This document shows positions 8,014 to 57,589 of a stretch of 60,935 bases of DNA, in pieces (position 1 is the stretch's first letter; each line of letters starts with the position of its first letter). A program made the position numbers and the translations under genes. Source of the stretch: Hyphomonas sp. (GTDB lineage Bacteria > Pseudomonadota > Alphaproteobacteria > Caulobacterales > Hyphomonadaceae); contig NZ_WGLO01000017.1 of NCBI RefSeq assembly GCF_016125515.1, positions 1 through 60,935 of the forward strand, read 5' to 3'. The notes below the pieces were generated by a model. It had not been told where the DNA came from. It saw only the letters and a program-made list of their open reading frames with translations, and searched no databases.

Positions 8014-8081
8014 GGATCAGCCCTTCGCGAGTCGTGTTGGCGACATTGATCGCTAACTGCCGTAGGGGGGGCGAGCCCTGT

Positions 8082-8099: not shown

Positions 8100-8155
8100 G
8101 GGCTGGCCTGTCGCACCCGCACTATTCCTGCGGCGAACTTCCAAGGAGCGCAGTC

Positions 8156-8431: not shown

Positions 8432-8474
8432 GATTGTCCGGGCAGTGAAGAACGCGCCGGAGGTGCCGCTCGAA

Positions 8475-38339: not shown

Positions 38340-40230
38340 GCTCGTCCTCCAGGTAATGGAACGCGGCGGCGTGCCGGCCTTCGAACCGCGCGCGAGGCTC
38401 GAGAGCGGCGGTTTGTGGGGCACATTCATCAATCAGAGGCAGGTAGAGGCAGCTTGCCGGCTCGCCGCCGGTCAGAAGTGTCAGCGTCGGCGCGGGGGTT
38501 TCGGGCAGGACGAACAGGTTGTCTGCATCCGCGCCGGCGAGGGTCATTCTTACCCGGCTTTCCGGCTGCAGCCGCCAGGCGACCGGATAGAATTCAAGAG
38601 CGACCTCCAACACCTCGCCCGGGGTGACGTCCTTCAGATCACGAGCTGACTGGCTGTGGAACGCGCGCCCGTCATGCGGGCGCGGGCTGTCTGAGATCTG
38701 GCGGTGGAAGAAGTTCAGCCAGCCCTCGGTGATGTAATGGGCCCGGCCATCACTGAGGACTTCTTCGAGCGTCGCAATGAGCGCGCCCGAGCGGCCTGTC
38801 GTCTTCAGGTAAGCAACAAGCTCAGGACGGCCGTTGAGGCGCCCGCCGTCTCTGAATGGCTCTGTGTGGAATGCGAGGCATCGCTGCGACCGGCGGTTCA
38901 GGTCCGGGGGCGAAATCCGCTTGTCGCTGCGAAAGAAGAAGCGTGACCGGCTATGGTCGCCCAGCGTGACGCCGTAGTCGACGGCGTAGGTCAGCTCGGC
39001 CTTCCTTGCAGCCCCCGGCTCGGAAAGGTTGCCCTCGCGATCAAGGTCGAGGCGCTGCTTGCGGCTTTCGGGCAGCGGATAAGTCTCAGCGCTGAACCAG
39101 CGTTCCCGGCCAAACGTATCGACCTCAGCGAAGCAGAAAGGCGCCTCCGACATTGTCCCGTTGTCGATACCCTTCAGCCAGTAATCGAACCAGCGGTGTT
39201 GCTCGATATAGGAGACTTGCGGACCCAGATGGTTCCACGGACCCATCAGGAGCCGCTTCGGAACCGTCAGTGCCCTGTAGAAATCGAGTATGTGCCCGTT
39301 GAAACTGATATCCCACCAGCCGCTGACCAGCAGGATCGCAGTACCCGACGCATTGAGGCGCGCGGTTTCATCCAGGCTGTCACCGAGTGGCCCGAGTTCG
39401 GGCAGCGGCGGGTCAGGGGCGTCCTGGCGCACGGCCTGAAGCATCGGCTCCCGAACCATCTTCATCAGCGACAGCGGGTCCGGCGTGTCTGTCGGCAGCG
39501 ACCGAGGCCGACGCTGCAGGACAGCCTCCTCCATCAGGCGCGGCCCCTCATTGCCATCAACGGGCAGGGCAGGAGCCTGTCCCTGCTGGTTGGCAACCAT
39601 GCCCGCCCAGTCGACGGAGTAGAAGCCATGCAGGTACAGTCCTCCGTCGCAGACGGCGGAGAAGCCCTGCGAGGTAGCCATAGGGGCAATCGCGGTCAGG
39701 TGACGCGGATGATAGGCCGCCGTCGTCAGCTGGATCGTTCCCTCCCAGGAAATGCCGATCATGCCGATCCTGTCCGTCGACCAGTCCTGCGCGGCAATCC
39801 AGTCGATGATGAAGGCAATGTCAGCACTGTTGCGCCACATCAGGTTCGAGCCCTTCCCGAAGGAGGCGCCTGTGCCGCGAAGATCAATGCAGACGAGGTT
39901 GTATCCATGGTCAACCAGCCGTTTGGCGAGCAGGCTTTTCTCATAACCGGTTACGAGGTCGCCGACTTTCAGCTTCTTCCAAGCGGGCTGGTCGCCGCTG
40001 AGCGCCAGATCGGTTTCGCCAAAGAAGTAGGCCCTCCTGTATCCCGTCGCCTGAATGATCGTCGGAAGCGGGCCCTCGAGGACTTCGCCATCGAGGCATG
40101 GCCGCAGGATGTCGATGGCAATCCGGCAGCCGTCATCGACCGCAACATAGATCGACCGGCGCTCATAGCCGTTCGCAACCTCCGAGGTGTAACCCTCATA
40201 AACCCCCGGACCCGATATCCGGGCGCTCAT
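38332..40230 (-). CDS. CocE/NonD family hydrolase
   Basis: This 632-residue hydrolase is of the X-Pro dipeptidyl-peptidase/cocaine esterase family. The N-terminal catalytic domain has the nucleophile in GMIGISWEGTIQL (about residue 155), followed by the helical cap and the C-terminal jelly-roll domain (EVALEFYPVAWRLQPESRVRMTLAGADADN). No signal peptide is seen. It probably cleaves an ester or amide of the degraded compound. It overlaps phyH by 4 bp and the SDR by 8 bp, so it is tightly coupled in the operon. Confidence 0.88.
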   Translation of the reverse strand: MSARISGPGVYEGYTSEVANGYERRSIYVAVDDGCRIAIDILRPCLDGEVLEGPLPTIIQATGYRRAYFFGETDLALSGDQPAWKKLKVGDLVTGYEKSLLAKRLVDHGYNLVCIDLRGTGASFGKGSNLMWRNSADIAFIIDWIAAQDWSTDRIGMIGISWEGTIQLTTAAYHPRHLTAIAPMATSQGFSAVCDGGLYLHGFYSVDWAGMVANQQGQAPALPVDGNEGPRLMEEAVLQRRPRSLPTDTPDPLSLMKMVREPMLQAVRQDAPDPPLPELGPLGDSLDETARLNASGTAILLVSGWWDISFNGHILDFYRALTVPKRLLMGPWNHLGPQVSYIEQHRWFDYWLKGIDNGTMSEAPFCFAEVDTFGRERWFSAETYPLPESRKQRLDLDREGNLSEPGAARKAELTYAVDYGVTLGDHSRSRFFFRSDKRISPPDLNRRSQRCLAFHTEPFRDGGRLNGRPELVAYLKTTGRSGALIATLEEVLSDGRAHYITEGWLNFFHRQISDSPRPHDGRAFHSQSARDLKDVTPGEVLEVALEFYPVAWRLQPESRVRMTLAGADADNLFVLPETPAPTLTLLTGGEPASCLYLPLIDECAPQTAALEPRARFEGRHAAAFHYLEDEHV

Positions 40231-41279
40231 TGGCCGGCTTTCTTGGCGCGCGCCTTCTGCCGCGCCCGCGATACGAATGCGTCAATGTCGGCGCCGCCGA
40301 CCTCTGTGACCGACGGCCACTGGAACGTCTTGGGGGGCGGCGCGGCCGTCCTTGAAGCAAGTCCCGCAGCAACGCGCCAGGGGGCAGAGTTCCAGCGCGG
40401 AAACCTTGCCTCGACCCCTCTGATCGTGCGCTCTGTCCAGTAAGGGTTGCCGGGTCTTGGTACACCGTAGACGGACAATTGTTCGGGGCCAGCCATTTCC
40501 ATGATGTCACGCCAGATCGGCAGAACAGGATGGAAATCGCCCCGGCGCGGACCAATCCAGGGCATGTCGCTGCGCCGGTATCCCGCGCCGACCACATGCC
40601 GGAAGGCGCCTGGCTCTGTGAGGTCCGTGCCCCGGTGAAAGGTCTCGCCCGAATAGAGCAGCACCGTGCCGCGCGGGCCGACCGCGCGGCGTTCGCCCCT
40701 CGCAAGCTCTGCCTGCCCTTCGCTGCCGGGCTGGCCGGCCTCGATACCGAAGCGCCGCGCCTCTGAGTTACGGACATAGGCGAGCGCGCCGTTCCCGAGG
40801 TCCACATCGGTAAGGTAGATGAACATCAGCACGGCGCCGTGCTCCGGCCGATCCGGCGGCACGAGCAGCTGATGGGTCGGATAGTCCCGGTGAAAGGGCT
40901 GGGCGTAATTGGTCTGGCCAGCGTCCTTGCGCCACGCATAGGACGTGTAGAGGAAGACGTCCCCGGTCCCCAGCAGCGACTGTACGGCCCGGATCAGCCG
41001 CGGATGCGCGGCCAGCAGGTTGAGGTCAGGGGCGCCGAGCGATGGCAGCGGGCGGATCGCTTCGAGCTGGTCGACATGGAACTTCGCCGTCTCGGCCGTA
41101 TTGCCGGCCTCTGCTGTCGCCTTGCGCGCCGCAGGCGGCAGCATCTCGTAGATCGTCTGAAAGTCTTCGTGCGGTTTTTCGAGTTCTTCGGCGCTAAAGA
41201 AACCGGGCAGGATCAGGACGCCCTCTTCCCTCCAGGTCTGTATGTCGGCTTCGCTCAGCGGTGAGGCGTGCGTTTGCAT
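40227..41279 (-). CDS. Phytanoyl-CoA dioxygenase family protein
   Basis: This 350-residue Fe(II)/2-oxoglutarate oxygenase family protein begins MQTHASPLSEADIQTWREEGVLILPGFFSAEEL. Metal ligands are visible as H-x-D in QPFHRDYPTHQ and distal His in GETFHRGTDLTEPG, with a 2-oxoglutarate-binding Arg likely downstream (RHVVGAGYRR). It would hydroxylate a substrate. The ATG at 41279 follows GGGGAAG. First gene of the minus-strand operon ending at the acyl-CoA synthetase; the operator at 41333-41350 lies 54 bp upstream. Confidence 0.88.
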   Translation of the reverse strand: MQTHASPLSEADIQTWREEGVLILPGFFSAEELEKPHEDFQTIYEMLPPAARKATAEAGNTAETAKFHVDQLEAIRPLPSLGAPDLNLLAAHPRLIRAVQSLLGTGDVFLYTSYAWRKDAGQTNYAQPFHRDYPTHQLLVPPDRPEHGAVLMFIYLTDVDLGNGALAYVRNSEARRFGIEAGQPGSEGQAELARGERRAVGPRGTVLLYSGETFHRGTDLTEPGAFRHVVGAGYRRSDMPWIGPRRGDFHPVLPIWRDIMEMAGPEQLSVYGVPRPGNPYWTERTIRGVEARFPRWNSAPWRVAAGLASRTAAPPPKTFQWPSVTEVGGADIDAFVSRARQKARAKKAGQ

Positions 41280-41332
41280 GGCGTCTTCCCCGATCCGGCG
41301 CATTCGGCATGATGCGCTCTCCCACCGAAGAA

Positions 41333-41350
41333 ACTATACAAACGTTCAGT
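41333..41350. promoter_or_regulatory. Shared operator site 1 (phyH operon)
   Basis: On the minus strand the sequence reads ACTGAAC-GTTT-GTATAGT, a 7-4-7 dyad. Closely similar 18-bp sites lie at 43072, 49584 and 52631, each in another promoter region of the cluster. The site is upstream of the phyH-like gene. A TetR-family operator is inferred. Confidence 0.72.
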
Positions 41351-41370
41351 CTTCAAGGCCTGGTTCGAAA

Positions 41371-42012
41371 TTATCTCTCGGGCGGCGGCAGGATCGTGCC
41401 TGAGGCAAGCACGCGCACAGTGCGGGACCAGTTGTCGAACCGCGCGCGGTGCGCACTCAGATTGCCGCCGATGGACAGATCGAGCCCGATCCCCCGCACC
41501 AGATGAACGGATGTCTGGAGCGCGCTCCTGACGAAATCGGCTGAGCCCACCGGGACATCTTCAAGTGCGCTATCGATGAACGCGTCCAGAAGTGTTGAAA
41601 GCTCGTCGGCCCCCTTCCGGATCGCTTCGCCGAGTTCGGGCTCTGTGCGCGCGGCGGTGAGCACTTCAAGGCCCACCACGAAGAAGTCACCCTCAAGCGT
41701 CGACCAGAGCCAGTCCAGAAAGACATCTATTCTCTGGCCTGGCGCGGCGGTCTTCATCGCCGCGTCGAGCGAGGCCAGACTGCGCAGGCCGAGATCCACG
41801 ATCAGCGCGCCGAACAGATCCGTGCGCTGCCGGAAATGATGCAGCAGCGTGCCTTTCGAAAAGTCGCCGGTTTCACACACGGCCCAGGTTGATGCCCCGG
41901 CATATCCGCGGGCCATCAGCGTATCATGCGCTGCCTTGAGGATGCGCTCGCGCGTGGCGCGGGTTCGATCGGCCTGGGTGCGGCGTAAGGGAAGTTTTTC
42001 AGTATCCGGCAT
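41371..42012 (-). CDS. TetR family transcriptional regulator (first)
   Basis: This 213-residue TetR-type regulator has an N-terminal helix-turn-helix at about residues 17-65 (RTRATRERILKAAHDTLMARGYAGASTWAVCETGDFSKGTLLHHFRQRTDLF) and a divergent ligand-binding domain. It is 9 bp downstream of the epimerase gene and so co-transcribed from the promoter carrying site 2, which would make it autoregulated. It is one of two candidates for the protein that binds the shared operator. Confidence 0.9.
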   Translation of the reverse strand: MPDTEKLPLRRTQADRTRATRERILKAAHDTLMARGYAGASTWAVCETGDFSKGTLLHHFRQRTDLFGALIVDLGLRSLASLDAAMKTAAPGQRIDVFLDWLWSTLEGDFFVVGLEVLTAARTEPELGEAIRKGADELSTLLDAFIDSALEDVPVGSADFVRSALQTSVHLVRGIGLDLSIGGNLSAHRARFDNWSRTVRVLASGTILPPPER

Positions 42013-42021
42013 GGCGCGAGT

Positions 42022-43041
42022 TTAAGCCCGTTCGCCAGAACCGGGAATGGCCGCGGCCGGGATCGATCGCCGCATCTGTTCAAGGGCTTCAGGATAGCGG
42101 ATCTGCGGCGTCCAGCCGAGCTCGCGGCGGATCCGCGCGTTCGGGATCCGGTTATCAAAGCCAACGAGATTGACCCCCTCCATGAAGGGCAGCGCAGCAT
42201 TTTCCGGGCCTTTCAGCTCGGCCGGGCTTTCATTGGCCTTCACGAGATCGAGGACGTCCTGAAGCGGAAAGAGCGGCGGGCGCTGCCGGCCCGCGAGGGC
42301 GGCCATGTCGGTCATGAAGCGGGCCCAGGTCACGTCTTCGCCGTCGCAGACATTGTAGGTGCGTCCGATGGCGGCCGGGTGCGTGCCCGCAAGGAAAATG
42401 GCATCCGCCAGATTGTCGACATGCGTCAGTCCGGCATTGTTCGTATCCGCTTCGCCAATCAGCGCGCCGCCGGACGCCCGGATCGCCTCGATCAGCCGGT
42501 CGCCCCAGGCCCCGCCGCCGCCGAGCCCGTAGACATTTGCCGGACGTATGAGCGTCAGGGGCAGTGACAGCCTTGAGGTGACCTGCAGCGCAGCAGCTTC
42601 CTGGCCCTGCTTGGCCCGGCCATAGGCCCCCGCCCAGGGCCCGTGACCGGCCTCCTCGTCGCAGACGCGTGTCTGAATGTGTGTACCATAGACCGCGATC
42701 GAAGTCGCAACGACGAGCCGCGCACCTACGCGGCCAGCCGCCTCGCAGACATGGCGTGTGCCATCAACGAAGATGCGCCACTGGAGGTCATAGTCGCCGC
42801 CATGTCCGACGAGCCCCGCCAGATGGATCACGAGATCGCGGTCCTCGCAGGCCGCGGCCAGGCTTGTCGGCTCGAGGAGATTTCCCGAACGCGCGGCGAC
42901 CCGGCCTTCCCAGTCACGGGGCAGCGCTTCTCCGGGCAGGGCAAAGGAGGCGACATCGTCTCCATCGCTCAGGAAGCGGCTGACGACCCGGCGGCCGATA
43001 AACCCCGTTCCGCCGGTAACCAGGACGCGTCGCTGCTGCAT
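42022..43041 (-). CDS. NAD-dependent epimerase/dehydratase (extended SDR)
   Basis: This 339-residue extended SDR has the NAD motif VTGGTGFIG near residue 9, an IHLAG segment, the active-site Tyr/Lys in YGRAK and an N-terminal Rossmann fold. Similar proteins include 3-beta-hydroxysteroid dehydrogenase/isomerase-like enzymes, which would fit a terpenoid or steroid-like substrate, but this cannot be decided. Start ATG 43041 follows GGAGG; earlier in-frame starts run through the operator. It leads the operon with the TetR gene. Confidence 0.9.
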   Translation of the reverse strand: MQQRRVLVTGGTGFIGRRVVSRFLSDGDDVASFALPGEALPRDWEGRVAARSGNLLEPTSLAAACEDRDLVIHLAGLVGHGGDYDLQWRIFVDGTRHVCEAAGRVGARLVVATSIAVYGTHIQTRVCDEEAGHGPWAGAYGRAKQGQEAAALQVTSRLSLPLTLIRPANVYGLGGGGAWGDRLIEAIRASGGALIGEADTNNAGLTHVDNLADAIFLAGTHPAAIGRTYNVCDGEDVTWARFMTDMAALAGRQRPPLFPLQDVLDLVKANESPAELKGPENAALPFMEGVNLVGFDNRIPNARIRRELGWTPQIRYPEALEQMRRSIPAAAIPGSGERA

Positions 43042-43071
43042 TTTGACCTCCGTATTCATCCGCATATTGAC

Positions 43072-43089
43072 ACTGAACAAACGTACAGT
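43072..43089. promoter_or_regulatory. Shared operator site 2 (epimerase/di-iron divergent promoters)
   Basis: ACTGAAC-AAAC-GTACAGT, a 7-4-7 dyad, lies in the 102-bp gap between the epimerase gene (start 43041, minus) and the di-iron hydrolase gene (start 43144, plus). One site could control both operons. Confidence 0.75.
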
Positions 43090-43143
43090 CCATATGGACG
43101 GTAAGTGGAGTCGAGCGCCGCTTGTCAACGCGAGGAGCAGGTC

Positions 43144-43977
43144 ATGAGCATTGCTGAAGACATTCCGATCCGCCGGATGAACTTCGAGTTTCCCGACGAC
43201 ATGGATCTCGTCTTCATCGAAGACGATCCGGCTTTGTCCTACCTGTTTGTCGGGGCCTGGATGATGTTGCCCTACCTTGAACCTTTCCTGATCCGGACCG
43301 TCCAGGCGGCAATGCCCCGGATCAAGGACGAGAACCTCAAGGAAGAAGCGCTGCGCTTCTGCGCGCAGGAAGGCCAGCACTTCCGCCAGCACCAGAAAAT
43401 GAACGATGTCGTTAAACGCGTGCACCCGGCGGGCCGGCGCCTTGCAGAGCTCGAAAAGGAAGTCGAAGCCCTGTTCGACGACTGGAGCCGCAACAAGCCG
43501 CTCAAGTTCTGCCTCGCCTATGGCGAAGGCTTTGAATCGATGACCTGCGCGGCTGCCCGTGCCCAGATCGAGACGGGCATGTTCGACCATATGAAGGAAC
43601 CCATCCGTGGGCTGATGTACTGGCACATCATGGAGGAGGTCGAGCACCGCAGCGTTGCGCATGATATCTATCATGCTTGCGGCGGCGACTATTTCCACCG
43701 GATGAAACTCGCGATGTTCTTCCAGCGCCATTATCTCGGCCTGTGCGGCCGTTTCCAGGCGGCCATGATCGAGGCCGATCCTGAAACCATCGCGCGCTAC
43801 CAGACACCGGAACTCGAAGCCAAGCGTGCGGCCCGGATGAAGGCCTATAACAAGGTCTTCCTGCCAAAATTGCTGGCGACCTACATGCCCTGGTACAACC
43901 CCTCACGGGTGCCGCTGCCGGGGGGCTACGAGACGGCGAGGACGACCTACTCGAACCTCGCTCTCAGCATTCGCTGA
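43144..43977 (+). CDS. Metal-dependent hydrolase family (PF10118-like)
   Basis: This 277-residue protein resembles the predicted metal-dependent hydrolase family PF10118, which has a ferritin-like di-iron fold. Glu/His motifs are present: QEGQHFRQHQ near residue 79 and MYWHIMEEVEHRSVAHDIYHACGG near 160-180. The start at 43144 follows GGAG; an earlier in-frame start at 43105 lacks it. The family is often found with lipid, terpenoid or steroid degradation genes, but the reaction is unknown. It heads the operon that includes cupin, alcohol dehydrogenase and hydrolase genes. Confidence 0.85.
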   Translation: MSIAEDIPIRRMNFEFPDDMDLVFIEDDPALSYLFVGAWMMLPYLEPFLIRTVQAAMPRIKDENLKEEALRFCAQEGQHFRQHQKMNDVVKRVHPAGRRLAELEKEVEALFDDWSRNKPLKFCLAYGEGFESMTCAAARAQIETGMFDHMKEPIRGLMYWHIMEEVEHRSVAHDIYHACGGDYFHRMKLAMFFQRHYLGLCGRFQAAMIEADPETIARYQTPELEAKRAARMKAYNKVFLPKLLATYMPWYNPSRVPLPGGYETARTTYSNLALSIR

Positions 43978-44017
43978 ACTTCAAGACAACTTCAAAGACA
44001 GATCCCGGGAGGACAAG

Positions 44018-44566
44018 ATGGCAGACGGACAGGCTAAGGTCAGCATGGAAGAGAAATTCGCTCAGTATGCAGCGAAGGTCGCCGCGCGCGGTACGTTCCC
44101 GGTTTGGGACGCACCGACACAGCTGGTGCGCGACGAGGACCTTCCCTGGGCGGTCGCCCCGGACGGTACCGCCATCAAGCTGCTGCATGTGGATCTCAAC
44201 CAGGGGCTCTGGATCTCGATGACCCGGCTTCCCGCAGGCGCAAAAGTCATCAAGCACTTCCATACAGGGTTCGTCTATGCCGTCACCCTGCAGGGAAGCT
44301 GGTACTATCTCGAGAGCCCAGAAGAAGTCTCCGGGCCCGGCTCCTACCTCTTCGAGCCCGCCGGCTCGACCCATACGCTTGTGACGCCGCCGGACCAGAC
44401 CGGTGAGACCATCGTCTGGTTTGCGATCTACGGCGCTAACATCAATCTGGATGAGGAAGGCAAGCCGGTTTCCGTCGTTGATGCCCGCGCCGCACTCGAA
44501 ATGTACCGGGTCTATTGCGACGCCATCGGCGCAGATTGCTCCAAGCTGATCGTTCACGGTGAATGA
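44018..44566 (+). CDS. Cupin, 2,4'-dihydroxyacetophenone dioxygenase-like
   Basis: This 182-residue single-domain cupin has the metal motif HFHTGFVYAVTLQGSWYYLE and the second motif EPAGSTHTL, resembling 2,4'-dihydroxyacetophenone dioxygenase, an Fe enzyme that cleaves a C-C bond of an aromatic hydroxyketone. Related cupins of other function share this fold, so the assignment is tentative. It is 41 bp downstream of the metal-dependent hydrolase and overlaps the alcohol dehydrogenase by 4 bp (ATGA). Confidence 0.78.
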   Translation: MADGQAKVSMEEKFAQYAAKVAARGTFPVWDAPTQLVRDEDLPWAVAPDGTAIKLLHVDLNQGLWISMTRLPAGAKVIKHFHTGFVYAVTLQGSWYYLESPEEVSGPGSYLFEPAGSTHTLVTPPDQTGETIVWFAIYGANINLDEEGKPVSVVDARAALEMYRVYCDAIGADCSKLIVHGE

Positions 44567-45630
44567 TGATGACGGGCATGCGGGCAAGCGTCCTTTACGG
44601 CCAGACGTTCCGGACTGAAAACCGTCCCGTACCTGAACCGGGGCCCGGCGAGGTGCTGATCAAGGTCCGCTCCTGCGGTATCTGCGGATCGGACCTGCAC
44701 GTCTTCAAGCACCAGAAGCACACGATCGAAACGGCGCGTTCGCTCGGCGCGGATGTGACCGAACTCGAGCGCGCCTACAATCAGGGCGTCGTCCTCGGGC
44801 ATGAGTTCGTCGGCGAAGTCTGCGCCTTCGGGCCAGGGACCGAGCGCGCCCTCGCCGTCGGCGACCGTGTGGTCTCGATGCCATTTGTCCTGAAGCAGGG
44901 CGCGCCTGTTCTCATCGGATCCAATCCGGAAACGACAGGCGCCTATGCCGAATACATGACCCTTACAGAAGCCATGCTCCTGAAGGTACCAGAGACGGTT
45001 CCGACAGAAGCGGCTGCCTTCGTCGAGCCGCTCGGGATTGCTGTTCATTCAGTAAACAAGGCCGCCCTGCCTGACGGCGCAGCGGCTGTGATTGTTGGCG
45101 CCGGGCCGATTGGCCTCGCCATCACCGCCGTGCTCAAGGCCCGGGGCGTGAAGACCATCATCGCGTCAGATCTTTCACCGAAGCGCCGGGAACTCGCCGC
45201 CCGGATGGGCGCAAGCGATGTCGTCAACGGCGCCGAGCAGAGCCCGATCGCGCTCGCTGCGGAAAAAGCGCCCGGCGCCCCGCTGGTCATCTTCGAGAAC
45301 ACCGGAGCGCCCGGCATGCTCGGACGGCTTGTGCTCGAAGCCCCTCAGAATGGCCGGATCGTGGTGACTGGTATCGCCTCCGGCAATGAGAGTTTCCTGC
45401 CAATGTTGGCCATCGCCAAGGAACTCTCCATGGTGTTTGTCATCTATTACTCGCCGGAAGAGTTTACCGATGCGCTTCGCCTGATCGAGCAGCGCCTGTT
45501 TGACTGGCGAGCGCTGCACACAGGCACCGTCGGCCTCGACGGGATTGCCGTCGCCTTCTCTGAGCTCGCAGATCCGGAAAAGCATGCCAAGATCCTGATC
45601 GATCCGTGGTCGGACGGGAGCCTGAATTGA
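44563..45630 (+). CDS. Zinc-dependent alcohol dehydrogenase family protein
   Basis: This 355-residue medium-chain dehydrogenase has catalytic zinc ligands in CGICGSDLH (Cys/Asp region) and GHEFVGEV (His/Glu), and the NAD fold motif VIVGAGPIGLAI. The usual four-cysteine structural zinc loop of horse-liver-type ADH is absent. It begins in the cupin stop (ATGATGATG run) and ends over the hydrolase start. It probably oxidises an alcohol intermediate; a substrate cannot be named. Confidence 0.9.
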   Translation: MMMTGMRASVLYGQTFRTENRPVPEPGPGEVLIKVRSCGICGSDLHVFKHQKHTIETARSLGADVTELERAYNQGVVLGHEFVGEVCAFGPGTERALAVGDRVVSMPFVLKQGAPVLIGSNPETTGAYAEYMTLTEAMLLKVPETVPTEAAAFVEPLGIAVHSVNKAALPDGAAAVIVGAGPIGLAITAVLKARGVKTIIASDLSPKRRELAARMGASDVVNGAEQSPIALAAEKAPGAPLVIFENTGAPGMLGRLVLEAPQNGRIVVTGIASGNESFLPMLAIAKELSMVFVIYYSPEEFTDALRLIEQRLFDWRALHTGTVGLDGIAVAFSELADPEKHAKILIDPWSDGSLN

Positions 45631-46526
45631 CCCTGCCGCCGATCGACGGCGCGGCCGTCCGAACCCTCAAAGTGGGCGGGCTGTCCTTTACCGCGCATGA
45701 GATGGGGGAAGGCCCGCTCGTTCTCTGCCTGCATGGGTTTCCCGATACGCCGCAGACCTTCCGGTTGATGCTGCCGGCGCTCGCCAAGGCAGGCTTCCGG
45801 GCGGTCGCGGTCACGCTGCGCGGGTATGAGCCCTCCTCGCAGCCCGCAGACAATGATTACAGCGTCGCTAGCCTCGCAGAGGATGTGCGCGGATGGATTG
45901 ACGCGCTTGGCGCAGACAAGGCCCACCTCATCGGTCATGACTGGGGCGTCAATCTCGTCTACAGCGCCGCCGCGCTTTGCCCCGAGCGGATCGGCCGGGT
46001 CGTCATGATGTCCGTGCCGCAACCCGCCGCCTTCGCAGGGGTCATGGCCGCAGACTATGACCAGACGCGCAGGTCCTGGTATGTCTACTGGTTCCAGGTA
46101 CGCGGCGCGGCTGAGCTCCTGTTGCCGGCCAATGCGTTTGCCTTCCTTAAGCGCCTCTGGCGCGACTGGTCTCCGAACTGGAGCGATACAGCGTCCCTCA
46201 CCAACGCAGAGGCGGCGCTCTCCGGTCCCGGCGTGCTGGGCGCCGCGCTCGAATATTACCGGTCGGCCTTTGACTTCGCCCATCCGCGTGCTGCCGAAAG
46301 CCAGCGCTTGCTCTCGTCGCCAATTGCGGCGGCGACGCTCGGGCTCTGCGGCGCCGACGATGGCTGTATCAGCGCGGCGATCTTCGAGGCCGCTATGCCG
46401 GCCGCCTTCTTTACCGGCGGTGTGCGTACGATGACAGTTCCCGGTGCAGGTCACTTCGTTCATCTGGAACAGCCAGGCTTGGTGCACGACGCGATCCTGG
46501 CTCACCTCGATGCCGAGAATCGTTGA
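45627..46526 (+). CDS. Alpha/beta hydrolase, epoxide hydrolase-like
   Basis: This 299-residue protein is like soluble epoxide hydrolases/haloalkane dehalogenases: LCLHGFPDTPQTF oxyanion motif (HGFP), nucleophile Asp in LIGHDWGVNL, and catalytic His in GAGHFVHLE. The TTG at 45627 (overlapping the dehydrogenase stop as TTGA, with GGGAG upstream) is preferred to a GTG at 45606 without a ribosome site. It is the last gene of the di-iron-cupin-ADH-hydrolase operon. Its role could be hydrolysis of a reactive ring-oxygenation product. Confidence 0.82.
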   Translation: MTLPPIDGAAVRTLKVGGLSFTAHEMGEGPLVLCLHGFPDTPQTFRLMLPALAKAGFRAVAVTLRGYEPSSQPADNDYSVASLAEDVRGWIDALGADKAHLIGHDWGVNLVYSAAALCPERIGRVVMMSVPQPAAFAGVMAADYDQTRRSWYVYWFQVRGAAELLLPANAFAFLKRLWRDWSPNWSDTASLTNAEAALSGPGVLGAALEYYRSAFDFAHPRAAESQRLLSSPIAAATLGLCGADDGCISAAIFEAAMPAAFFTGGVRTMTVPGAGHFVHLEQPGLVHDAILAHLDAENR

Positions 46527-46583
46527 AGCTCGAAGACCAGAGCCTGATCGTTCAATTGCATCGGGCATTGCTCCTGGCGATAG

Positions 46584-46599
46584 CGTTCAGGCCTGAACG
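46584..46599. promoter_or_regulatory. Perfect palindrome upstream of peptidase-like gene
   Basis: CGTTCAGGCCTGAACG is a 16-bp perfect palindrome about 100 bp before the peptidase-like gene. It contains the half-sites GTTCAG and CTGAAC of the shared operator in the opposite arrangement (outward rather than inward). Binding by the same regulator is speculative. Confidence 0.35.
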
Positions 46600-46696
46600 T
46601 GCTCGCGTTTTTGCTTGTTCCGGAGATTGATCGGAGCAGGCATATTTGCAGGTCAGTCGAGGCAATGCGACGCTGAACCTGACAGGAGAGGTAAGG

Positions 46697-47947
46697 TTGA
46701 GAATTTCCCGACCCAGCAGGCGCCAGGCCCTGTCACTTCTGTTGGCGTCTGGTTTGTCAGCCTGCATGACGCGAGGAGGGCAGCCGACTGAAGTCCCGAT
46801 GTCCGAAAAACTTCTCCAACTCGCGTCCTTTGGCATAAGGCGAACCGGCTCTGCAGGTGAAGAACGCACCCGCGACTGGATTTCCGCGGCCCTTGAGTCT
46901 GCCGGATACAGAATCCGATCGACAGCATTTTCGGCAAACACGCTCGTCTATCCGGAGGTGAAAATTGGACTGGGCAGCGAAACTTGCGAGGGGTTCCTGC
47001 AATGGATGCCGCCTGTCGCCCTGCCGGCTCCTTTAGAAGGGGGTGTTCATTTGTCCCTGCCTGGCGACGCCCGTCCTGGGGACTGCGTTGTTCGTGCCAT
47101 GCCTGGTCCGTTTTCCGCCTACTGGACGGATGCACTTGAAGCAGAAGTTAAGGCAGCGGCCCATCGCGGGGCGGCCGCTTACCTCATGTGCACCGAGACA
47201 CCGTCCGGTTCGATCTTTGCCTACAACCGGTCCATCAGGTTGCCAGACCTTCCCATCCCGGTGGTCCTTTATGCGCGGCGTGATCACGACCTGATCCTGG
47301 CAGCAGCTGTGCAGAAGCATGAGACTCGCCTGTCGCTTTCGGCGACACGTACCGCCGTGTCCGGAGTAAGTCTGATAGGGGCGAGACCTGGAAAGGGGGC
47401 CGGACTTGTCATCTCGACGCCGATGACGGGATGGTTCGGATCGGTGGCCGAGCGCGCGCCCGGGATCATCCTCGCGAGGCAACTGGCCGAAGCCTATGCC
47501 GAGGCCTCGTTCCCGGTCTGGATTGTCGCCAGCAGCGGTCATGAAATCGGCCACCTTGGTATGCAGCAAATACTCGGGGAACTGGCCCCCTTGCCGGAAG
47601 AGGTCGGCCTCTGGATTCATCTGGGCGCTAGCCTTGGCGCAACCGCGCAGGATGAAGACTATCTGCTGAAATCGCTGCACTTTCGTATGGCAACGCCTGG
47701 CATTGCAGCCCTTGTTGACGAGGCCTTTGGCCCGATGGGGCTCTCGCCACTCGATCCGTCTCAGATGCGTAATGGCGAAACAGGAGACGTTCTGTCCGCC
47801 GGCTACAAGGACGTCCTCGGGCTGACCGGAGTCGCGGCGACATTTCATACGCCGGTCGATGATGGAGCCGCAGTCAACACGGGCCGTCTGGAACAGTATG
47901 AACGGGCCCTGCGCGGTGTGATCGACCACAGGTTTGGACAAGCCTGA
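46697..47947 (+). CDS. M28 peptidase-like lipoprotein
   Basis: This 416-residue exported protein starts at TTG 46697 (LRISRPSRRQALSLLLASGLSACMTRGG) after AGGAGAGGTAAGG. Two arginines before a hydrophobic stretch resemble a Tat signal, and the lipobox LSAC places the lipidated Cys at 23. It resembles M28/PA-containing aminopeptidases (GEERTRDWISAALESAGYRI and ASSGHEIGHLGMQQI), but the usual HxD metal ligands are not seen; the equivalent segment reads STPMTGWFGSV. It may be a catalytically changed member. It is co-directional with the preceding operon after a 170-bp gap. Confidence 0.72.
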   Translation: MRISRPSRRQALSLLLASGLSACMTRGGQPTEVPMSEKLLQLASFGIRRTGSAGEERTRDWISAALESAGYRIRSTAFSANTLVYPEVKIGLGSETCEGFLQWMPPVALPAPLEGGVHLSLPGDARPGDCVVRAMPGPFSAYWTDALEAEVKAAAHRGAAAYLMCTETPSGSIFAYNRSIRLPDLPIPVVLYARRDHDLILAAAVQKHETRLSLSATRTAVSGVSLIGARPGKGAGLVISTPMTGWFGSVAERAPGIILARQLAEAYAEASFPVWIVASSGHEIGHLGMQQILGELAPLPEEVGLWIHLGASLGATAQDEDYLLKSLHFRMATPGIAALVDEAFGPMGLSPLDPSQMRNGETGDVLSAGYKDVLGLTGVAATFHTPVDDGAAVNTGRLEQYERALRGVIDHRFGQA

Positions 47948-47959
47948 CCTTTGGCGGTC

Positions 47960-49513
47960 TCAACCCGCTGGCTGGTAGGCAGCCCTGAGACCGCGCTTGT
48001 CCGTCTTGCCGTTTGGCAGGCGAGGAAAGGCCTCGAGGATCTGCCAGGATTTCGGGATCTTGTAGCCGGCGATCCTGTCTTTGAGGAAAGCCTTGAGGTC
48101 ATCTCCAGCGAGACTGGAGCCCGGGCGCAGGACGAGGAAGGCATGGCCGACTTCCTGAAAGGTGTCGTGCGGGACTTCAATCACGGAGGCTTCCATCACG
48201 TCAGGATGCTCGCAGATCGCAAGTTCCACCTCTACCGGATAAACATTGTATCCGCCCGACTTGAACATCTCTTTCAGGCGGCCGGCAAAGACTATGTTTC
48301 CATCCAGGCGCTGAATGCCAAGGTCCCCCGTCTTCAGCCATCCATCTGCTGTGAACGCCTCTTTGCTGGCGTCCGGCTTGTTCCAGTAGCCCGACATGAC
48401 CGAGACACCGCGAACCTGGATTTCGCCAGTTTCACCAACAGCAATAGGCGCGCCATCGGGAGCCGCAATCCGGATCTCGTTTCCGCGTATGGGTTTGCCG
48501 ATGGTTTCAGACATGACGTCGAGGCCGGCGTCTTCCTCCGTATACGTCATCATTCCGGTTGTCTCGGTTTGTCCATAGACACTTGACATGCGCGCGCCGG
48601 TCTTGCGCACATGCTCAAGCTGGGCGATCGTCGATGCCGCACCGCCGAAGACAATCAGTTTAAAGAAACTTGCCGCCGAGAAGTCCATGCCGGCAGCGAT
48701 CATCATCGCCCAGGCGGTCGGGCTGCCAACGAGATAGGTGGGCTGCTCGCGGGCGTTGAGAACCGAAATGGCCGAGCGGTCAACGCGCGGAAAGAAGATG
48801 ATCCGCCCGCCGGCGGCGAATACAGTAAAGCAGACATTGTTGAGCCCGCCCACGTGATTGATCGGCGCCGCGCAGAGTGTAGCGCTGAGGCCTTCGGTGG
48901 GCATCCACGCGATATTTGACAGCGCCGTCTGGACGACCGCGCGGTGGGAAAGCATGGCGCCTTTGGGCTGACCCGTTGTGCCAGACGTGTAGACGATCAC
49001 GGCAATATCCTCTGGATCGACGGCAGCTCGGGCGCTTTTCAGGGACCCTTCCGGCAGGCTCGAACTTAGCTCAAGTCGTGTGTCACCCGTCCCTAGCGCT
49101 TCAGCATACAGAGGAACCAATTGCGCGCTTCCGTCCGAGATTGCCTCAAGCTCCTCGAAATAGTTGCGTCCATCGAAGTCAGTATGCGCAAAGATGAGGC
49201 TGGGGGAGGCGTCGGCAAGAAGGTAAGCGTACTCGTTACGCTTGTAGGCCGGATTCAGGCCCTGCCAGATAGCGCCAATTGAGGTTGCAGCCAGAAAGGT
49301 TATCCAGAAGTCGAGACATGGCGGGGCGAGTGTCGCAACCCTGTCGCCTTTGCGGATCCCGGAAGCCAGAAGAAAGGTAGCGACCGTGTCGATTCGTCCG
49401 GCCAGGTCCTGATTTGTAAGCCTCAGGCTGTCCTGCAGCACGGCTTCTCCGTTTGGCGCTGATTCCACGCGCCAACGCAGCACGTCATAAATATTCTTGG
49501 CGGTTTCCATCAT
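47960..49513 (-). CDS. Acyl-CoA synthetase (AMP-forming), second copy
   Basis: This 517-residue ANL ligase has the ATP motif VYTSGTTGQPKGAMLSH, YGQTETTG, the hinge TADGWLKTGDLG, FKSGGYNVYPVEVE, and the catalytic lysine near LPNGKTDKRGLRAAYQ. It activates a carboxylate to CoA thioester; together with the first copy it suggests two acid intermediates. Start 49513 follows GAGGG. It converges on the M28-like gene (12-bp gap) and is divergent from the TonB receptor, sharing operator site 3. Confidence 0.92.
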   Translation of the reverse strand: MMETAKNIYDVLRWRVESAPNGEAVLQDSLRLTNQDLAGRIDTVATFLLASGIRKGDRVATLAPPCLDFWITFLAATSIGAIWQGLNPAYKRNEYAYLLADASPSLIFAHTDFDGRNYFEELEAISDGSAQLVPLYAEALGTGDTRLELSSSLPEGSLKSARAAVDPEDIAVIVYTSGTTGQPKGAMLSHRAVVQTALSNIAWMPTEGLSATLCAAPINHVGGLNNVCFTVFAAGGRIIFFPRVDRSAISVLNAREQPTYLVGSPTAWAMMIAAGMDFSAASFFKLIVFGGAASTIAQLEHVRKTGARMSSVYGQTETTGMMTYTEEDAGLDVMSETIGKPIRGNEIRIAAPDGAPIAVGETGEIQVRGVSVMSGYWNKPDASKEAFTADGWLKTGDLGIQRLDGNIVFAGRLKEMFKSGGYNVYPVEVELAICEHPDVMEASVIEVPHDTFQEVGHAFLVLRPGSSLAGDDLKAFLKDRIAGYKIPKSWQILEAFPRLPNGKTDKRGLRAAYQPAG

Positions 49514-49583
49514 GAAGATATCCCTCGCAGTGTGTCCGAAAGGCCTCATGCCTTCCCGAAAGTAAACTCAGGCCTTGTGAAAG

Positions 49584-49601
49584 ACTGAACAATTGTATAG
49601 T
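49584..49601. promoter_or_regulatory. Shared operator site 3 (ligase/TonB receptor promoters)
   Basis: ACTGAAC-AATT-GTATAGT matches the 7-4-7 dyad of the other three sites. It lies in the 143-bp gap between the minus-strand ligase and the plus-strand TonB receptor, and is followed by TTCTTGGATCAAAG, similar to the right flank of site 4. Confidence 0.75.
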
Positions 49602-49656
49602 TCTTGGATCAAAGCGGTCTGTCCGACAAGTGGCAGCGCGTATCTGGGAGGATTTA

Positions 49657-51825
49657 ATGAACAACCGTGCAATGCTTTTGTGTAGTGCAAGTCTGATCGG
49701 CGCTCTGTCTTTCGCGCCGGCCCTCGCGCAGGAAGCTGATGACGAGTCAGGCGCCAAACGCCTCGGCACTGTCACTGTGACCGCCCAGAAACGGGAGGAG
49801 TCGATCCTTGATGTTCCGTTGTCGGTTCAGGCAATCGAAAGCGAAACGCTTGAGAATGCCGGTATCAAGGATGTCGCGGGCCTCGTAAAGCTGATCCCCG
49901 GCGCTTCGGTGGTGTCGGCCAGCTCGCGTGGTTTTGAAACCATCCAGATCCGCGGGATTTCAGCAGGCACAACAGGCGACGGGCTGACCGGGTATTATGT
50001 GGATGACTTTGCGTTCGGCGTGCCGAACCTCCAGCTTTCGCCGCCAGCGCGTCTTCTCGACCTCGATCAGGTTGAAGTTATCCGCGGCCCGTCCGGTACC
50101 ATCTGGGGGCAGGGGTCGATGGGCGGAAATATTCGCCTGATTACAGCAGATCCAGATACGGACGCATTCTCCGGAAAGCTTGTCGGGGAGTACTCGAATA
50201 CTGAGGGCGGCAGTGACAATTATGCCGTCGATGGTGTCGTCAATATCCCCATCGCCAAGGACAAGTTCGCAATTCGTTTGTCGGGCGGCTATGATGAACT
50301 TGGCGGTTATGCAGACGTGCTCCAGACCGGCCAGACGGACGCTAACGGGTCGAACGGGTCTAACTTCCGCATAAAGGCGCTCTACACACCGACCGACCGG
50401 TTGTCCGTCCGGGCGACATACTGGACGATCGACAACGAGCAGGGGTTCAGCAATTCGGTCATCACGACCAATCCAGCCACAGGCCTTCCGCTTTCCGAGC
50501 CCGCACTGAACGGCGCCGGAAGCGTCACGAACGGTCCGGTAGACGGTTTCGTCGACACGTCGATGGATATCGGCTCAGTCGCAATCAAGTATGACTTTGA
50601 CAAGGTGACGCTCACCAGTTCGACGTCTTATACTGAGCATGAACTGGATTTCGAAGCGCCGCTCACGCTCGGGGCTTTCAACTACAACAATGACTCCACT
50701 TTCAAGACCGATTCTTTCACTCAGGAATTCAGGCTGACGAACACGAATGAGGCCGTCTTCAACTGGATTGCAGGTGTTTATTACCGCGATGCGACGATAA
50801 ACAGCGACATCGACTTCTATCTTGATGGCACGGACTTCGCCCTGGGTCTGATCCCGCTGATCAGCATTACTGGCCCGCTCGAAACGAAGTCCTGGTCGGT
50901 ATTCGGAGAAGCGTCCTGGAAACTGTTCGATGGAAAGCTCGTGCCGCTCATCGGCGTTCGCTATTTTGAAGACGAGCGCTCCTCAGGTCCCGGCTTTGAC
51001 CGTGTGACCAGTCTGCCGAGACCCAAACTGTCTGAAACCTTCGACAGTGTAAGCCCGCGCTTCAGCCTGAAGTACCTTCCGAACGCCAATACGACAATCT
51101 ATCTCAACGCCGCGCATGGCTTCCGAAGCGGCACCATTCAGACGGACGCGCAGGTTGCTGCCGCAAATACGCTTGGCGTTCCGGCCCAGCGCGGCGTCGA
51201 TCCTGACGAACTTTGGACTTATGAGCTCGGCGGAAAATTTTCGCTAGCCAATGGAACAGTCCTGATTGATGGCGCTCTGTATCGTACTGACTGGACCGAC
51301 GTGCAGCAGCCATTCGGTCCTCTGTCTTCAGTCGCCAATGTCGGCGATGCTAAGATCGAAGGCATCGATATCGGACTGGCCTGGTTGACGCCGGTGGATG
51401 GCCTGTCGTTGCAGGCGAATGCCAATATGCAGAATGCTGAGTGGGACACGGTTCGACCCAACGTCACCGCGTCTCTTCCGTTTGTCACGCCGGGCGCAGA
51501 AGTCCTCGCGGTTCCCGAGCAGACGTTTTCGCTCGCGGCAAACTATGAGCGGGACGTCAGCGTTTTCGGAGGTTCGGTCCTGTCGCTGAATTCGACCTAC
51601 GCCTACAGGTCTGACAGCCTTCAGCAAACAGGTACGCGAACGGACGATATCAAGGATCTGTCCCTCAGCGCCAACCTGAAAACAGCCTCGGGCGTCACGC
51701 TCGGCGTATTTGCGTTCAATGCGCTCGATGAAGACGGCGCGGCGCAAAGGATCATCTATGCAGGGGACCCGATCGTTCGCCCATATCCGCGCCGTATTGG
51801 TGTCAAGCTTGGGGTAGAGTTCTAA
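49657..51825 (+). CDS. TonB-dependent outer membrane receptor
   Basis: This 722-residue outer membrane receptor has a signal peptide (MNNRAMLLCSASLIGALSFAPALAQ), a TonB-box-like start of the mature part (GTVTVTAQKREESILDVPLSVQAI), a plug domain (residues about 60-180), and a beta-barrel ending in aromatic-type residue Phe (LGVEF). Start 49657 follows GGGAGGA. It probably imports the hydrophobic substrate of the degradation cluster, sharing operator control with the ligase. A hairpin terminator follows. Confidence 0.94.
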   Translation: MNNRAMLLCSASLIGALSFAPALAQEADDESGAKRLGTVTVTAQKREESILDVPLSVQAIESETLENAGIKDVAGLVKLIPGASVVSASSRGFETIQIRGISAGTTGDGLTGYYVDDFAFGVPNLQLSPPARLLDLDQVEVIRGPSGTIWGQGSMGGNIRLITADPDTDAFSGKLVGEYSNTEGGSDNYAVDGVVNIPIAKDKFAIRLSGGYDELGGYADVLQTGQTDANGSNGSNFRIKALYTPTDRLSVRATYWTIDNEQGFSNSVITTNPATGLPLSEPALNGAGSVTNGPVDGFVDTSMDIGSVAIKYDFDKVTLTSSTSYTEHELDFEAPLTLGAFNYNNDSTFKTDSFTQEFRLTNTNEAVFNWIAGVYYRDATINSDIDFYLDGTDFALGLIPLISITGPLETKSWSVFGEASWKLFDGKLVPLIGVRYFEDERSSGPGFDRVTSLPRPKLSETFDSVSPRFSLKYLPNANTTIYLNAAHGFRSGTIQTDAQVAAANTLGVPAQRGVDPDELWTYELGGKFSLANGTVLIDGALYRTDWTDVQQPFGPLSSVANVGDAKIEGIDIGLAWLTPVDGLSLQANANMQNAEWDTVRPNVTASLPFVTPGAEVLAVPEQTFSLAANYERDVSVFGGSVLSLNSTYAYRSDSLQQTGTRTDDIKDLSLSANLKTASGVTLGVFAFNALDEDGAAQRIIYAGDPIVRPYPRRIGVKLGVEF

Positions 51826-51856
51826 GCGGTCAGACTCCTCCCTTCCGCTCTCATCT

Positions 51857-51888
51857 GGGCCGCCTCTTAATGAGGCGGCCCTTTTTTT
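51857..51888 (+). terminator. Rho-independent terminator of the TonB receptor gene
   Basis: A perfect 10-bp stem GGGCCGCCTC/GAGGCGGCCC with loop TTAAT is followed by seven T. It begins 32 bp after the receptor stop and reaches the 3' end of the convergent TetR gene. Confidence 0.9.
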
Positions 51889-52525
51889 ATCTGGGTGAGG
51901 CCCCATTCCAAAATAGGTGCTTCATTGCTTTCTGGAATCTGCCCCACATTTCCGGATCGTAGGTGGACTTGCCCATCATCGCCTTGACGTAGGGATCGAG
52001 CATGAGGGGGCCGATCAGCATGAACATATACAGCAATGGCAGCCAAAGCCGGTCCGCGTCCTCCGATACGCGCCCCTCAGCGTCAAAACGCATGATCATC
52101 TTCGAGATTGAATCATAGTACTCGCGAAACAGGTGCTCGCCCCACTCGCTGTTCTCGGTAATGGCCCGGCGCAGATAGGCGGCAAAGCTCGGCCATTCCT
52201 CGGCATACTGGCGGATCCAGTTGCGCTGGTACTCGGCAACCTTGTCGAGATCCGGGCTGGCCATCTCTCTGGACGCGCGCGTAATTGCCTTCGACGTTCG
52301 TTCGAGGAAATGCGCATCGACCGCAGCGCGGAGTCCCTCCTTGGAGTCAAAATGGTGGTTGATAAGACCGATGGAGACGCCGGCCTCCTTGGCAATGTCG
52401 CGGACCGTGACCCCATCAAACCCGCGTTCTGCGAAAAGCTGCATGGCGACCATGATCAGCCGGTCGCGGCCCTTCAGGGCAGGGCGTTCGGGTTCCAAGG
52501 CTGAGGGCGGAATGTTGTCAGGCAT
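51887..52525 (-). CDS. TetR family transcriptional regulator (second)
   Basis: This 212-residue TetR-type regulator has its helix-turn-helix at about 20-65 (GRDRLIMVAMQLFAERGFDGVTVRDIAKEAGVSIGLINHHFDSKEGLRAAV), followed by a C-terminal domain with likely ligand pocket. It is divergent from the thiolase gene, and the strongest copy of the shared operator, site 4, lies in the gap between them, so it is the better candidate for the cluster's repressor and would repress itself. Confidence 0.92.
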   Translation of the reverse strand: MPDNIPPSALEPERPALKGRDRLIMVAMQLFAERGFDGVTVRDIAKEAGVSIGLINHHFDSKEGLRAAVDAHFLERTSKAITRASREMASPDLDKVAEYQRNWIRQYAEEWPSFAAYLRRAITENSEWGEHLFREYYDSISKMIMRFDAEGRVSEDADRLWLPLLYMFMLIGPLMLDPYVKAMMGKSTYDPEMWGRFQKAMKHLFWNGASPR

Positions 52526-52618
52526 AACTTGGACCCTAACGGACTGGTGATCGAACGCGAAGCCTTTGTTCAGTCCTACACGCCAAAAATTACGAAAATG
52601 GTCAATTTCCGGCCGGGA

Positions 52619-52660
52619 CTTGATCTAAGGACTGAACTAATGTTCAGTTCTTAGATCAAG
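52619..52660. promoter_or_regulatory. Shared operator site 4 within a 42-bp dyad
   Basis: The core ACTGAAC-TAAT-GTTCAGT (52631-52648) is perfectly symmetrical, and symmetry extends to 19-bp arms (52619-52637 and 52642-52660) with one mismatch. It lies in the 209-bp divergent region between the second TetR gene and the thiolase operon, 74 bp before the thiolase start. A further GTTCAGT half-site is at 52568-52574. Confidence 0.82.
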
Positions 52661-52734
52661 GAAAGCGGTGCTTCGCTGATCAGGACTGTTCAGCCGCCGG
52701 GGCCGCAAAACAAAGCAAAATCAGGGAGCACCTT

Positions 52735-53940
52735 ATGCGCGAGGCCGTCATTGTTTCTACAGCCCGGACGGGCATGCCGAAGGCTGTCAAAGGCAGCTTC
52801 AACAACACTCATCCCATCGCCTTTACCGGTCACGCGCTGAAAGCGGCGATCGCGCGCGCAGGGATCGACCCAGGTGAAGTCGAAGATGTGGTGCTCGGCT
52901 CCGGCATGCCGGAGGGCGCAACCGGTTTCAACATCGCGCGCAACGCCGCAATCAAGGCGGGCTGCCCGGTGACGACCTCCGGCGTGACCGTCAACCGCTA
53001 TTGCTCCTCCGGTCTCCAGGCGATTGCGATGGCCGCCGGGCGCATCATCAATGAAGGCGACACCATCGTCGCAGGTGGCGGCGTCGAGTCGATCTCGATG
53101 GTGCAGCTCTCCGGCAAGATGAACATGACGGGCGCCGTCGAAGAGACCCTCTTCGCAGACAAGCCGTCGCTCTGGATGCCGATGATCGAGACCGCCGAAA
53201 TTGTTGCGCAGCGCTATGGCATCTCCCGGGAAGCTCAGGACAGATACGCGCTCCAGTCCCAGCAGCGCACAGCAGCCGGCCAGCGTGAGGGCAAGTTTGC
53301 GGACGAAATTGTTCCGATGGATGTCGTCTGGAAACGTCCGAACAAGGAAACAGGCGAGCCCGAACTCATCAATGTCCGGGTTGAACGGGACGAGTGCAAC
53401 CGCCCTGAGACGACACTCGACTCGCTTGCAACACTGAGCCCTGTCCTTCGCAGCGGCATGGTCGTGAAGGAAGGCAAATACGTCACAGCGGGCAATGCCT
53501 CCCAGCAGTCCGACGGCGCCAGCGTCTGTATTCTCGTGGAGGGCAAGGAAGCCGAACGCAGGGGCCTCAAACCGCTGGGCATCTTCCGCGGCTTTGCCGT
53601 TGCCGGCTGCGAGCCAGACGAAATGGGGATCGGTCCCGTTTATGCAGTCCCCAAACTCCTCAAGCGCGCCGGCCTCAAAGTCTCCGACATCGGCGTCTGG
53701 GAGCTCAACGAGGCCTTTGCCAGCCAATGCCTCTATTGCCGCGACGAACTCGGCATCGATCCGGCAAAATACAACATCAATGGCGGGGCGATCTCGATCG
53801 GCCATCCCTATGGTATGACGGGATCGCGCTCGACCGGGCACGCGCTGATCGAAGCGAAACGCCGGGGAGAAAAATATGTGGTTGTCACCATGTGTGTCGG
53901 CGCCGGTATGGGCGCGGCCGGCCTGTTCGAGGTAGCCTGA
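52735..53940 (+). CDS. Acetyl-CoA acyltransferase (thiolase)
   Basis: This 401-residue thiolase performs the last cleavage step of beta-oxidation. The nucleophile is Cys in [12 protein letters not shown] (about residue 91), with the second-site motifs [19 protein letters not shown] and [14 protein letters not shown] at the C-terminus. It opens the five-gene operon thiolase-hydratase-MaoC-SDR-MFS, under site 4. Fatty acid, terpenoid or steroid side chain substrates are all possible. Confidence 0.95.
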
Positions 53941-54755: not shown

Positions 54756-54759
54756 TCTC

Positions 54760-55224: not shown

Positions 55225-55242
55225 TCAGGAGACGGAATTATC

Positions 55243-56178: not shown

Positions 56179-56179
56179 G

Positions 56180-57496: not shown

Positions 57497-57589
57497 AGGC
57501 GGGTTGAGCCAACATAAGGCCGGTTGCGAACAGGCAAACTGCGGGAAAAATGACCTAACTCGTAATGCCTTGATTTTATTGTAAAAAAT

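Follow-up and report, generated by a model that had tools for sequence, protein, structure and literature searches.

According to the accessible parts of the reports describing them, EdcR is a TetR-family, estrogen-dependent repressor from the edc cluster of Caenibius tardaugens (PMC8700777), and PsrA and FadP are TetR-family regulators of fatty acid degradation (PMC5343134). Here we analyse a contig of Hyphomonas sp. (NZ_WGLO01000017.1, 60,935 nucleotides, hereafter the window), which makes up all of contig C15 of a 26-contig genome of 3,221,494 bases. Four promoter regions of a gene cluster in this window carry an 18-base-pair (bp) dyad, ACTGAAC-N4-GTWYAGT (dyad A), and the cluster encodes two TetR-family proteins, TetR1 and TetR2 (Table 1). 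With a probability of roughly 80%, we propose that dyad A is the operator of TetR2, a predicted repressor of the four promoters, its own included, until a pathway compound would release it. The sequences themselves show the four sites, their confinement to the cluster in their own genome, and that in related Alphaproteobacteria they are conserved along with TetR2 and the same genes. Within the parts of the sources available, TetR2 resembles EdcR as an alphaproteobacterial TetR protein in a multi-promoter catabolic cluster with a TonB-receptor gene (edcT) (PMC8700777), and resembles PsrA and FadP in having a multi-operon β-oxidation regulon delineated by comparative genomics (PMC5343134).

All four dyads lie where the original prediction had placed them, with 0 mismatches each to the pattern, and each belongs to a different promoter region. 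As read from the sequence, site 2 is placed between the start codons of the epimerase (ATG at 43041, minus strand) and the di-iron gene (ATG at 43144, plus strand), site 3 between ligase B (minus) and the TonB receptor (ATG at 49657, plus), and site 4 between TetR2 (ATG at 52525, minus) and the thiolase (ATG at 52735, plus). An inverted repeat of 42 bp (52619-52660), with 18 of 21 arm pairs complementary, has site 4 as its core, and site 1 is conserved in the closest relative, a member of the same genus (G259; position 10079 of locus L031). When up to three mismatches are allowed on both strands, the window contains 20 matches; 100 dinucleotide shuffles gave 4.2 on average and never more than 11.

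In the whole genome, the pattern ACTGWAC-N4-GTWCAGT has two perfect and three one-mismatch places, all of them in the window. These five are the four promoter sites and 58284-58301, a one-mismatch place that we treat as chance because it falls inside a coding open reading frame (ORF). At this stringency the matches are limited to the window, an outcome that supports the original prediction, with which such a genome scan had been proposed. Three two-mismatch places are found outside the window, and at up to three mismatches the genome contains 80 matches versus 104 for a reversed-pattern control; there is thus no genome-wide excess of dyad A, and no wider regulon was seen in this genome. The consensus over 38 sites (four from the window and 34 from relatives), RCTGAACA-WW-TGTTCAGY, indicates that the inner A/T pair beside the arms is also part of the motif.

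The original prediction left open which protein reads the dyad. Among 299 genomes of the order, TetR2 has homologues at E 1e-20 in 11 (two of 25 in the genus), and TetR1 in four. A matrix built solely from the four sites of the window was used to scan the neighbourhoods of all ten other TetR2 carriers. None of the ten lacks a site of at least 13 bits and seven contain three or more. Wherever the gene pairs are present, the sites are located in the divergent promoters between ligase B and TonB, between TetR2 and the thiolase, and between the epimerase and the di-iron gene. The dyad follows TetR2 into seven of these ten genomes in which TetR1 has no match, two of which (G147 and G261, with TetR2 33-34% identical) have a TATAC-type variant of it.

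When named genomes were scanned with the TetR2 alignment, 80 of 179 confirmed loci were kept; 25 are close orthologues (L044-L068) from Hyphomonas, Hyphomonadaceae, Parvularculaceae, Phenylobacterium, Sphingomonas arenae, Glacieibacterium frigidum, Erythrobacter oryzae, Porphyrobacter and further Alphaproteobacteria. With the four-site matrix, 24 of the 25 have a dyad A site no more than 350 bp upstream of the TetR2 match, at 15 bits or more in 23 and at 13.5 bits in L067, scores that are equalled by at most one of 200 permuted matrices. In L063 the matrix finds no site upstream of TetR2, and a site remains near its ligase B. Excluding two Hyphomonas loci at 95-96% identity leaves 23 loci (416 kb), whose independence is partial (six overlap genomes of the ten-neighbourhood scan and several are mutual near relatives) and which contain 78 sites of at least 18 bits. 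Outside the mapped cluster genes there are 77 of these sites, and 72 are no more than 350 bp upstream of such a gene, whereas 100 column-permuted palindromic matrices average 0.11 sites and reach 2 in total at most, none upstream of a mapped gene.

The distribution of sites over genes, counted at 15 bits in scorable loci, is uneven. Sites precede TetR2 in 21/23, ligase B in 21/23, TonB in 19/20, the thiolase in 17/19 and the di-iron gene in 8/8. Coverage falls to 6/13 for MaoC, 5/21 for the enoyl-CoA hydratase, 4/12 for the epimerase, 3/17 for the short-chain dehydrogenase/reductase (SDR) of the thiolase operon, 2/11 for the cupin, 2/4 for the major facilitator superfamily (MFS) transporter and 2/3 for the SDR of 37.5 kb; it is zero for the alcohol dehydrogenase (ADH; 0/14), the hydrolase (0/14), ligase A (0/6), TetR1 (0/1) and the ORF of 46.6 kb (0/1). 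These low values mostly fit operon-internal genes. Because dyad A tracks TetR2 even where TetR1 has no homologue, TetR2 is likely its cognate, autoregulated repressor. The comparative evidence points to the autoregulated TetR-family regulator that had been proposed, binding and repression being predictions. In a search for a plasmid-borne cluster, 72,556 plasmid records gave no TetR2 homologue at E 1e-20.

In five loci, L056 to L060, two dyad A sites separated by 28 or 33 bp occur just upstream of the TonB gene (near 13552/13580, 13067/13100, 13109/13142, 13072/13105 and 6731/6764, respectively). This spacing would be compatible with two adjacent dimers.

The recognition stretch of TetR2 and its operator appear to change together in subgroups. 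Of the 25 orthologues, 23 have VS[IV]GLINHHF; L050 has VSVGLINHHY, and L063, the sole orthologue without a site before TetR2, has VSIGLIKHHF. Seven relatives of about 34% identity (L072, L073, L074, L076, L078, L080 and L082) have VSLGLVRTHF and an upstream TATAC-type dyad of 8 to 26 bits, the weakest being that of L074, which 18 of 200 permuted matrices reach. Ten relatives with VSIGLIRTHF (L069-L071, L075, L077, L079, L081 and L083-L085) have no 7-bit site before the gene, and neither does L086 (VSIGLVRTHF), which has two sites elsewhere in its locus. A matrix-free palindrome search was uninformative for many loci.

Several results obtained with the strict dyad A pattern weigh against this assignment. 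At one mismatch the pattern is present in 54 of the order's 299 genomes, 48 of which have no TetR2, and five of the 11 TetR2 genomes (G012, G142, G147, G177 and G261) lack a one-mismatch match, so that the strict pattern alone is a poor marker; perfect matches are found in five genomes, four of which have TetR2. G259 also has one strict one-mismatch match outside its cluster. When this was compared with those of four TetR2-less genomes of the same genus, three of the five (G259, G036 and G180) shared flanking sequence, and the off-cluster matches therefore look like a separate genus element, not part of this regulon. Recurring one-mismatch dyads such as TCTGAACAGGCGTTCAGT were observed outside TetR2 clusters in G001, G006, G021, G036, G180, G200, G205, G210, G254 and G259 (contig C1), and are possibly the site of another regulator or a genus element.

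Based on these data, we propose a model in which a TetR2 dimer would bind the dyad A sites and repress the promoters, with a pathway intermediate or its coenzyme A (CoA) ester as the presumed inducer. TetR1 would bind a second dyad (dyad B) at the epimerase-TetR1/di-iron promoter, which overlaps the TetR2 site by 5 bp in two Hyphomonas-type clusters. The entry module (di-iron protein, cupin, ADH and epoxide hydrolase) would then open only once both repressors leave, and uptake and β-oxidation would need only the release of TetR2. The original prediction had tied about 20 genes into one regulon: the single regulon is supported by the comparative evidence, and the count is lowered to about 18, or 19 with the ORF at 46646.

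Table 1. Genes and sequence elements of the cluster, in order of position in the window.
Feature	Positions	Strand	Remarks
CoA ligase A (AMP-binding)	35966-37573	-	
SDR oxidoreductase	37563-38336	-	
CocE/NonD-family hydrolase	38332-40230	-	TIGR00976, above its cut-off
PhyH-family dioxygenase	40227-41303	-	PF05721
Dyad A site 1	41333-41350	-	exact match; promoter of phyH-CocE-SDR-ligase A; ~30 bp upstream of phyH ORF
TetR1	41371-42012	-	TetR_N PF00440, 32.4 bits (cut-off 24)
NAD-dependent epimerase / 3β-hydroxysteroid dehydrogenase (HSD)-like reductase	42022-43041	-	PF01370, PF01073; start from sequence
Dyad A site 2	43072-43089	+	exact match; divergent promoter epimerase-TetR1 / di-iron-cupin-ADH-hydrolase
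Dyad B, ACAGTCCATATGGACGGT	43085-43102	+	likely TetR1 operator; 5-bp overlap with site 2
PF10118 protein, di-iron type, candidate oxygenase	43144-43977	+	PF10118; ExxH motifs; structure model
Cupin_7 protein related to 2,4'-dihydroxyacetophenone dioxygenase	44018-44566	+	family and structural-relative alignment
Zinc ADH nearest (R,R)-butanediol dehydrogenase	44563-45630	+	6ie0, E 2.7e-38
α/β epoxide hydrolase	45606-46526	+	5ng7, E 1.9e-38; HGFPD, GHDWG
ORF, possibly last gene of di-iron operon	46646-47947	+	relative 87% identical in G259
CoA ligase B	47960-49549	-	
Dyad A site 3	49584-49601	+	exact match; divergent promoter ligase B / TonB receptor
Weak fifth dyad A candidate	49656-49673	+	spans TonB start codon; 13.0 bits in window, 19.9 in G259
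TonB-dependent receptor	49657-51825	+	start from sequence
TetR2	51887-52525	-	TetR_N PF00440, 67.2 bits (cut-off 24)
Dyad A site 4	52631-52648 (inside 52619-52660)	.	divergent promoter TetR2 / thiolase operon
Thiolase	52735-53940	+	
Enoyl-CoA hydratase	53937-54755	+	PF00378
MaoC dehydratase	54760-55224	+	PF01575
SDR, 3-hydroxyacyl-CoA dehydrogenase-like	55243-56178	+	
MFS transporter	56180-57496	+	PF07690

The genes suggest a catabolic pathway with TonB uptake, a module of di-iron-type protein, cupin, ADH and epoxide hydrolase, CoA ligases and β-oxidation, and from the families we predict that it cleaves a carbon-carbon double bond. TonB uptake of the substrate would come first; the di-iron protein would then oxygenate the C=C bond to an epoxide, which the epoxide hydrolase would open to a vicinal diol. 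The ADH would oxidize this diol to an α-hydroxyketone, and the cupin dioxygenase would split the latter into two acids, which the CoA ligases would activate for β-oxidation by the products of the thiolase operon. The sequence of steps was inferred mainly because the genes for the di-iron protein, cupin, ADH and hydrolase recur in that order on one strand in 11 of the 25 loci. Five loci have a partial module (three without the di-iron gene, two with ADH and hydrolase only), and nine have none of the four genes in the stretch covered. The ORF that follows this module in the window has neither a Pfam nor an NCBIfam match.

Judged by its nearest solved relative and its motifs, the hydrolase is an epoxide hydrolase: the HGFPD oxyanion motif, the GHDWG nucleophile, a lid Tyr and the Asp/His residues align with 5ng7, and HGFPD and GHDWG are invariant in ten sequences; these residues are presumably the catalytic ones. 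The cupin scores better with two cupins annotated without a function than with 2,4'-dihydroxyacetophenone dioxygenase (E 1.3e-10); its HxH motif and a later His, which we take to be the metal ligands, align with 5bpx and 4p9g and are invariant in nine sequences. The PF10118 protein has two ExxH motifs, invariant in 38 sequences, and its model is helical with a pLDDT of 94.5. A Foldseek search with this model gave no match at E 0.001 or better; the best, weak structural matches are R2, methane monooxygenase hydroxylase, toluene monooxygenase, CmlI and AurF.

At slightly better than even odds, the regulon is real but double-bond cleavage is the wrong chemistry, and another hydrophobic substrate (a steroid, terpenoid or aromatic) is degraded by other steps. 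PF10118 is annotated only as a predicted metal-dependent hydrolase and its fold matches are weak, the cupin and ADH families are broad, and the 3β-HSD-like and PhyH genes could suit polycyclic or branched substrates. The recurrence of the four-gene order argues the other way, as does the fit of three enzymes with solved relatives to successive steps. The fullest form of the proposal, which we judge less likely than not, is a sporadic alphaproteobacterial regulon for an undescribed enzymatic 'ozonolysis' of a hydrophobic substrate, in which the PF10118 enzyme would epoxidize the C=C bond and two TetR repressors with overlapping operators would gate the cluster, the oxygen-consuming entry module opening only with both ligands.

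TetR2 might instead read dyad A as an activator, or as a repressor at some promoters and an activator at others, which we consider unlikely. Some TetR proteins do activate, FasR being described as a TetR-like activator in what was available of its source. A sigma-70 scan of 41200-57700 gave 7 sites versus 4.1 expected, none of them at the dyads; the scan gave no promoter position relative to these and no overlap of operator and promoter. However, a site beside the regulator's own divergent promoter is the usual layout of autorepression, and repression is what the accessible text reports for EdcR as a related catabolic case (PMC8700777).

A second dyad, dyad B, was absent from the list of the original prediction and lies at the epimerase/di-iron promoter. 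Written as ACAGTCCA-NN-TGGACTGT, it is found at up to one mismatch in five of the 299 genomes, namely the four TetR1 genomes and G029; in G187 and G142 a perfect copy is separated from dyad A by 23-24 bp and does not overlap it. Since the four genomes were known when the pattern was written, the evidence lies solely in its absence from other genomes: TetR2 carriers without TetR1 have it nowhere in their genomes at up to one mismatch, including G177 and G212, whose di-iron promoter is the same. In five distant TetR1 relatives of the class (29-35% identical, with loci of about 3.5 kb), dyad B was not seen, the best candidate having five mismatches. TetR1 is probably a local second repressor that reads dyad B, and the cluster probably has two repressors because this second dyad, in TetR1-bearing clusters, overlaps the site at 43072. 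In G029, which has a match to neither TetR protein, a perfect dyad A is found on contig C2 and a dyad B with one mismatch on contig C1; this was taken as chance.

The TetR1 gene lies in the operon behind one of the four dyad A sites, and TetR1 might for that reason be thought to read dyad A and run the regulon, TetR2 having another target. We set this aside as highly improbable, given the dyad in genomes without a TetR1 match (seven of ten), its presence upstream of TetR2 in 24 of the 25 orthologues, and the association of TetR1 with a different dyad. That the dyads are chance or remnants of a duplicated promoter, with no regulator, has a negligible probability: two sites share some right-hand flank, but the dyads are confined to the cluster in their own genome and relatives with diverged sequence have 78 sites versus 0.11 expected.

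Other features were observed around these genes. A strong terminator-like hairpin (10 pairs, then seven T) lies at 51857-51881, between the convergent TonB and TetR2 genes. Beside the cluster, at 58912-60457 on the minus strand, genes for an AbiEii-type nucleotidyltransferase (58912-59844) and an AbiEi-type antitoxin (59834-60457) are likely a type IV toxin-antitoxin pair. By ORF reading, 302-10246 contains a cbb3-type cytochrome oxidase cluster with a FixL/FixJ-like sensor pair, and the contig end has a tandem repeat of a 24-bp unit (60803-60848, 1.9 copies).

Together, the dyad and its targets provide a DNA code and a target list for a TetR orthologue group in Hyphomonas, Phenylobacterium, Sphingomonadales and other Alphaproteobacteria; the pathway can therefore be located, and its inducer sought with promoter reporters, ahead of any knowledge of the substrate. 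How TetR proteins read DNA can be examined in the two subgroups in which recognition stretch and operator change in step. If the predicted chemistry is true, PF10118 proteins would acquire an oxygenase function directed at C=C bonds.

Among known regulators, no named NCBIfam TetR model (PsrA, KstR, BetI, RutR, AcuR and others) reached its cut-off; the best score of TetR2 was 62.9 versus 180 (RefZ), and with PsrA it scored 39.8 bits against a cut-off of 300. An 18-bp dyad with a similar arm, of the TGAAC/GTTCA type, is recognized by FabR and DesT, whose targets are fatty acid biosynthesis genes. In the literature searched (listings and abstract openings of open-licence papers), the DesT operator string did not occur in the 20 papers listed of 88, and no publication could be tied to dyad A or to the cluster. 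PheR was set aside as an IclR-type regulator, as the accessible part of its report has it (PMC13273656). Unlike that of TetR2, the regulons of PsrA and FadP are dispersed over the genome and belong to other lineages, FadP being given as unique to Betaproteobacteria in the portion of the report at hand (PMC5343134). EdcR, in the available part of its description, serves an estrogen pathway with one palindrome described, as opposed to the two dyads here, and is partially autoregulated, a likeness to the predicted behaviour of TetR2 (PMC8700777). Its operator, TnnCnnTACnAnTnGTAnnGnnA, has an odd centre whereas those of dyads A and B are even, a comparison made by eye, the proteins being compared by description only. 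The regulon likely works in the manner of other TetR catabolic regulons such as those of EdcR, PsrA and FadP, with a likely two-repressor layout, and the predicted pathway under its control would be new.

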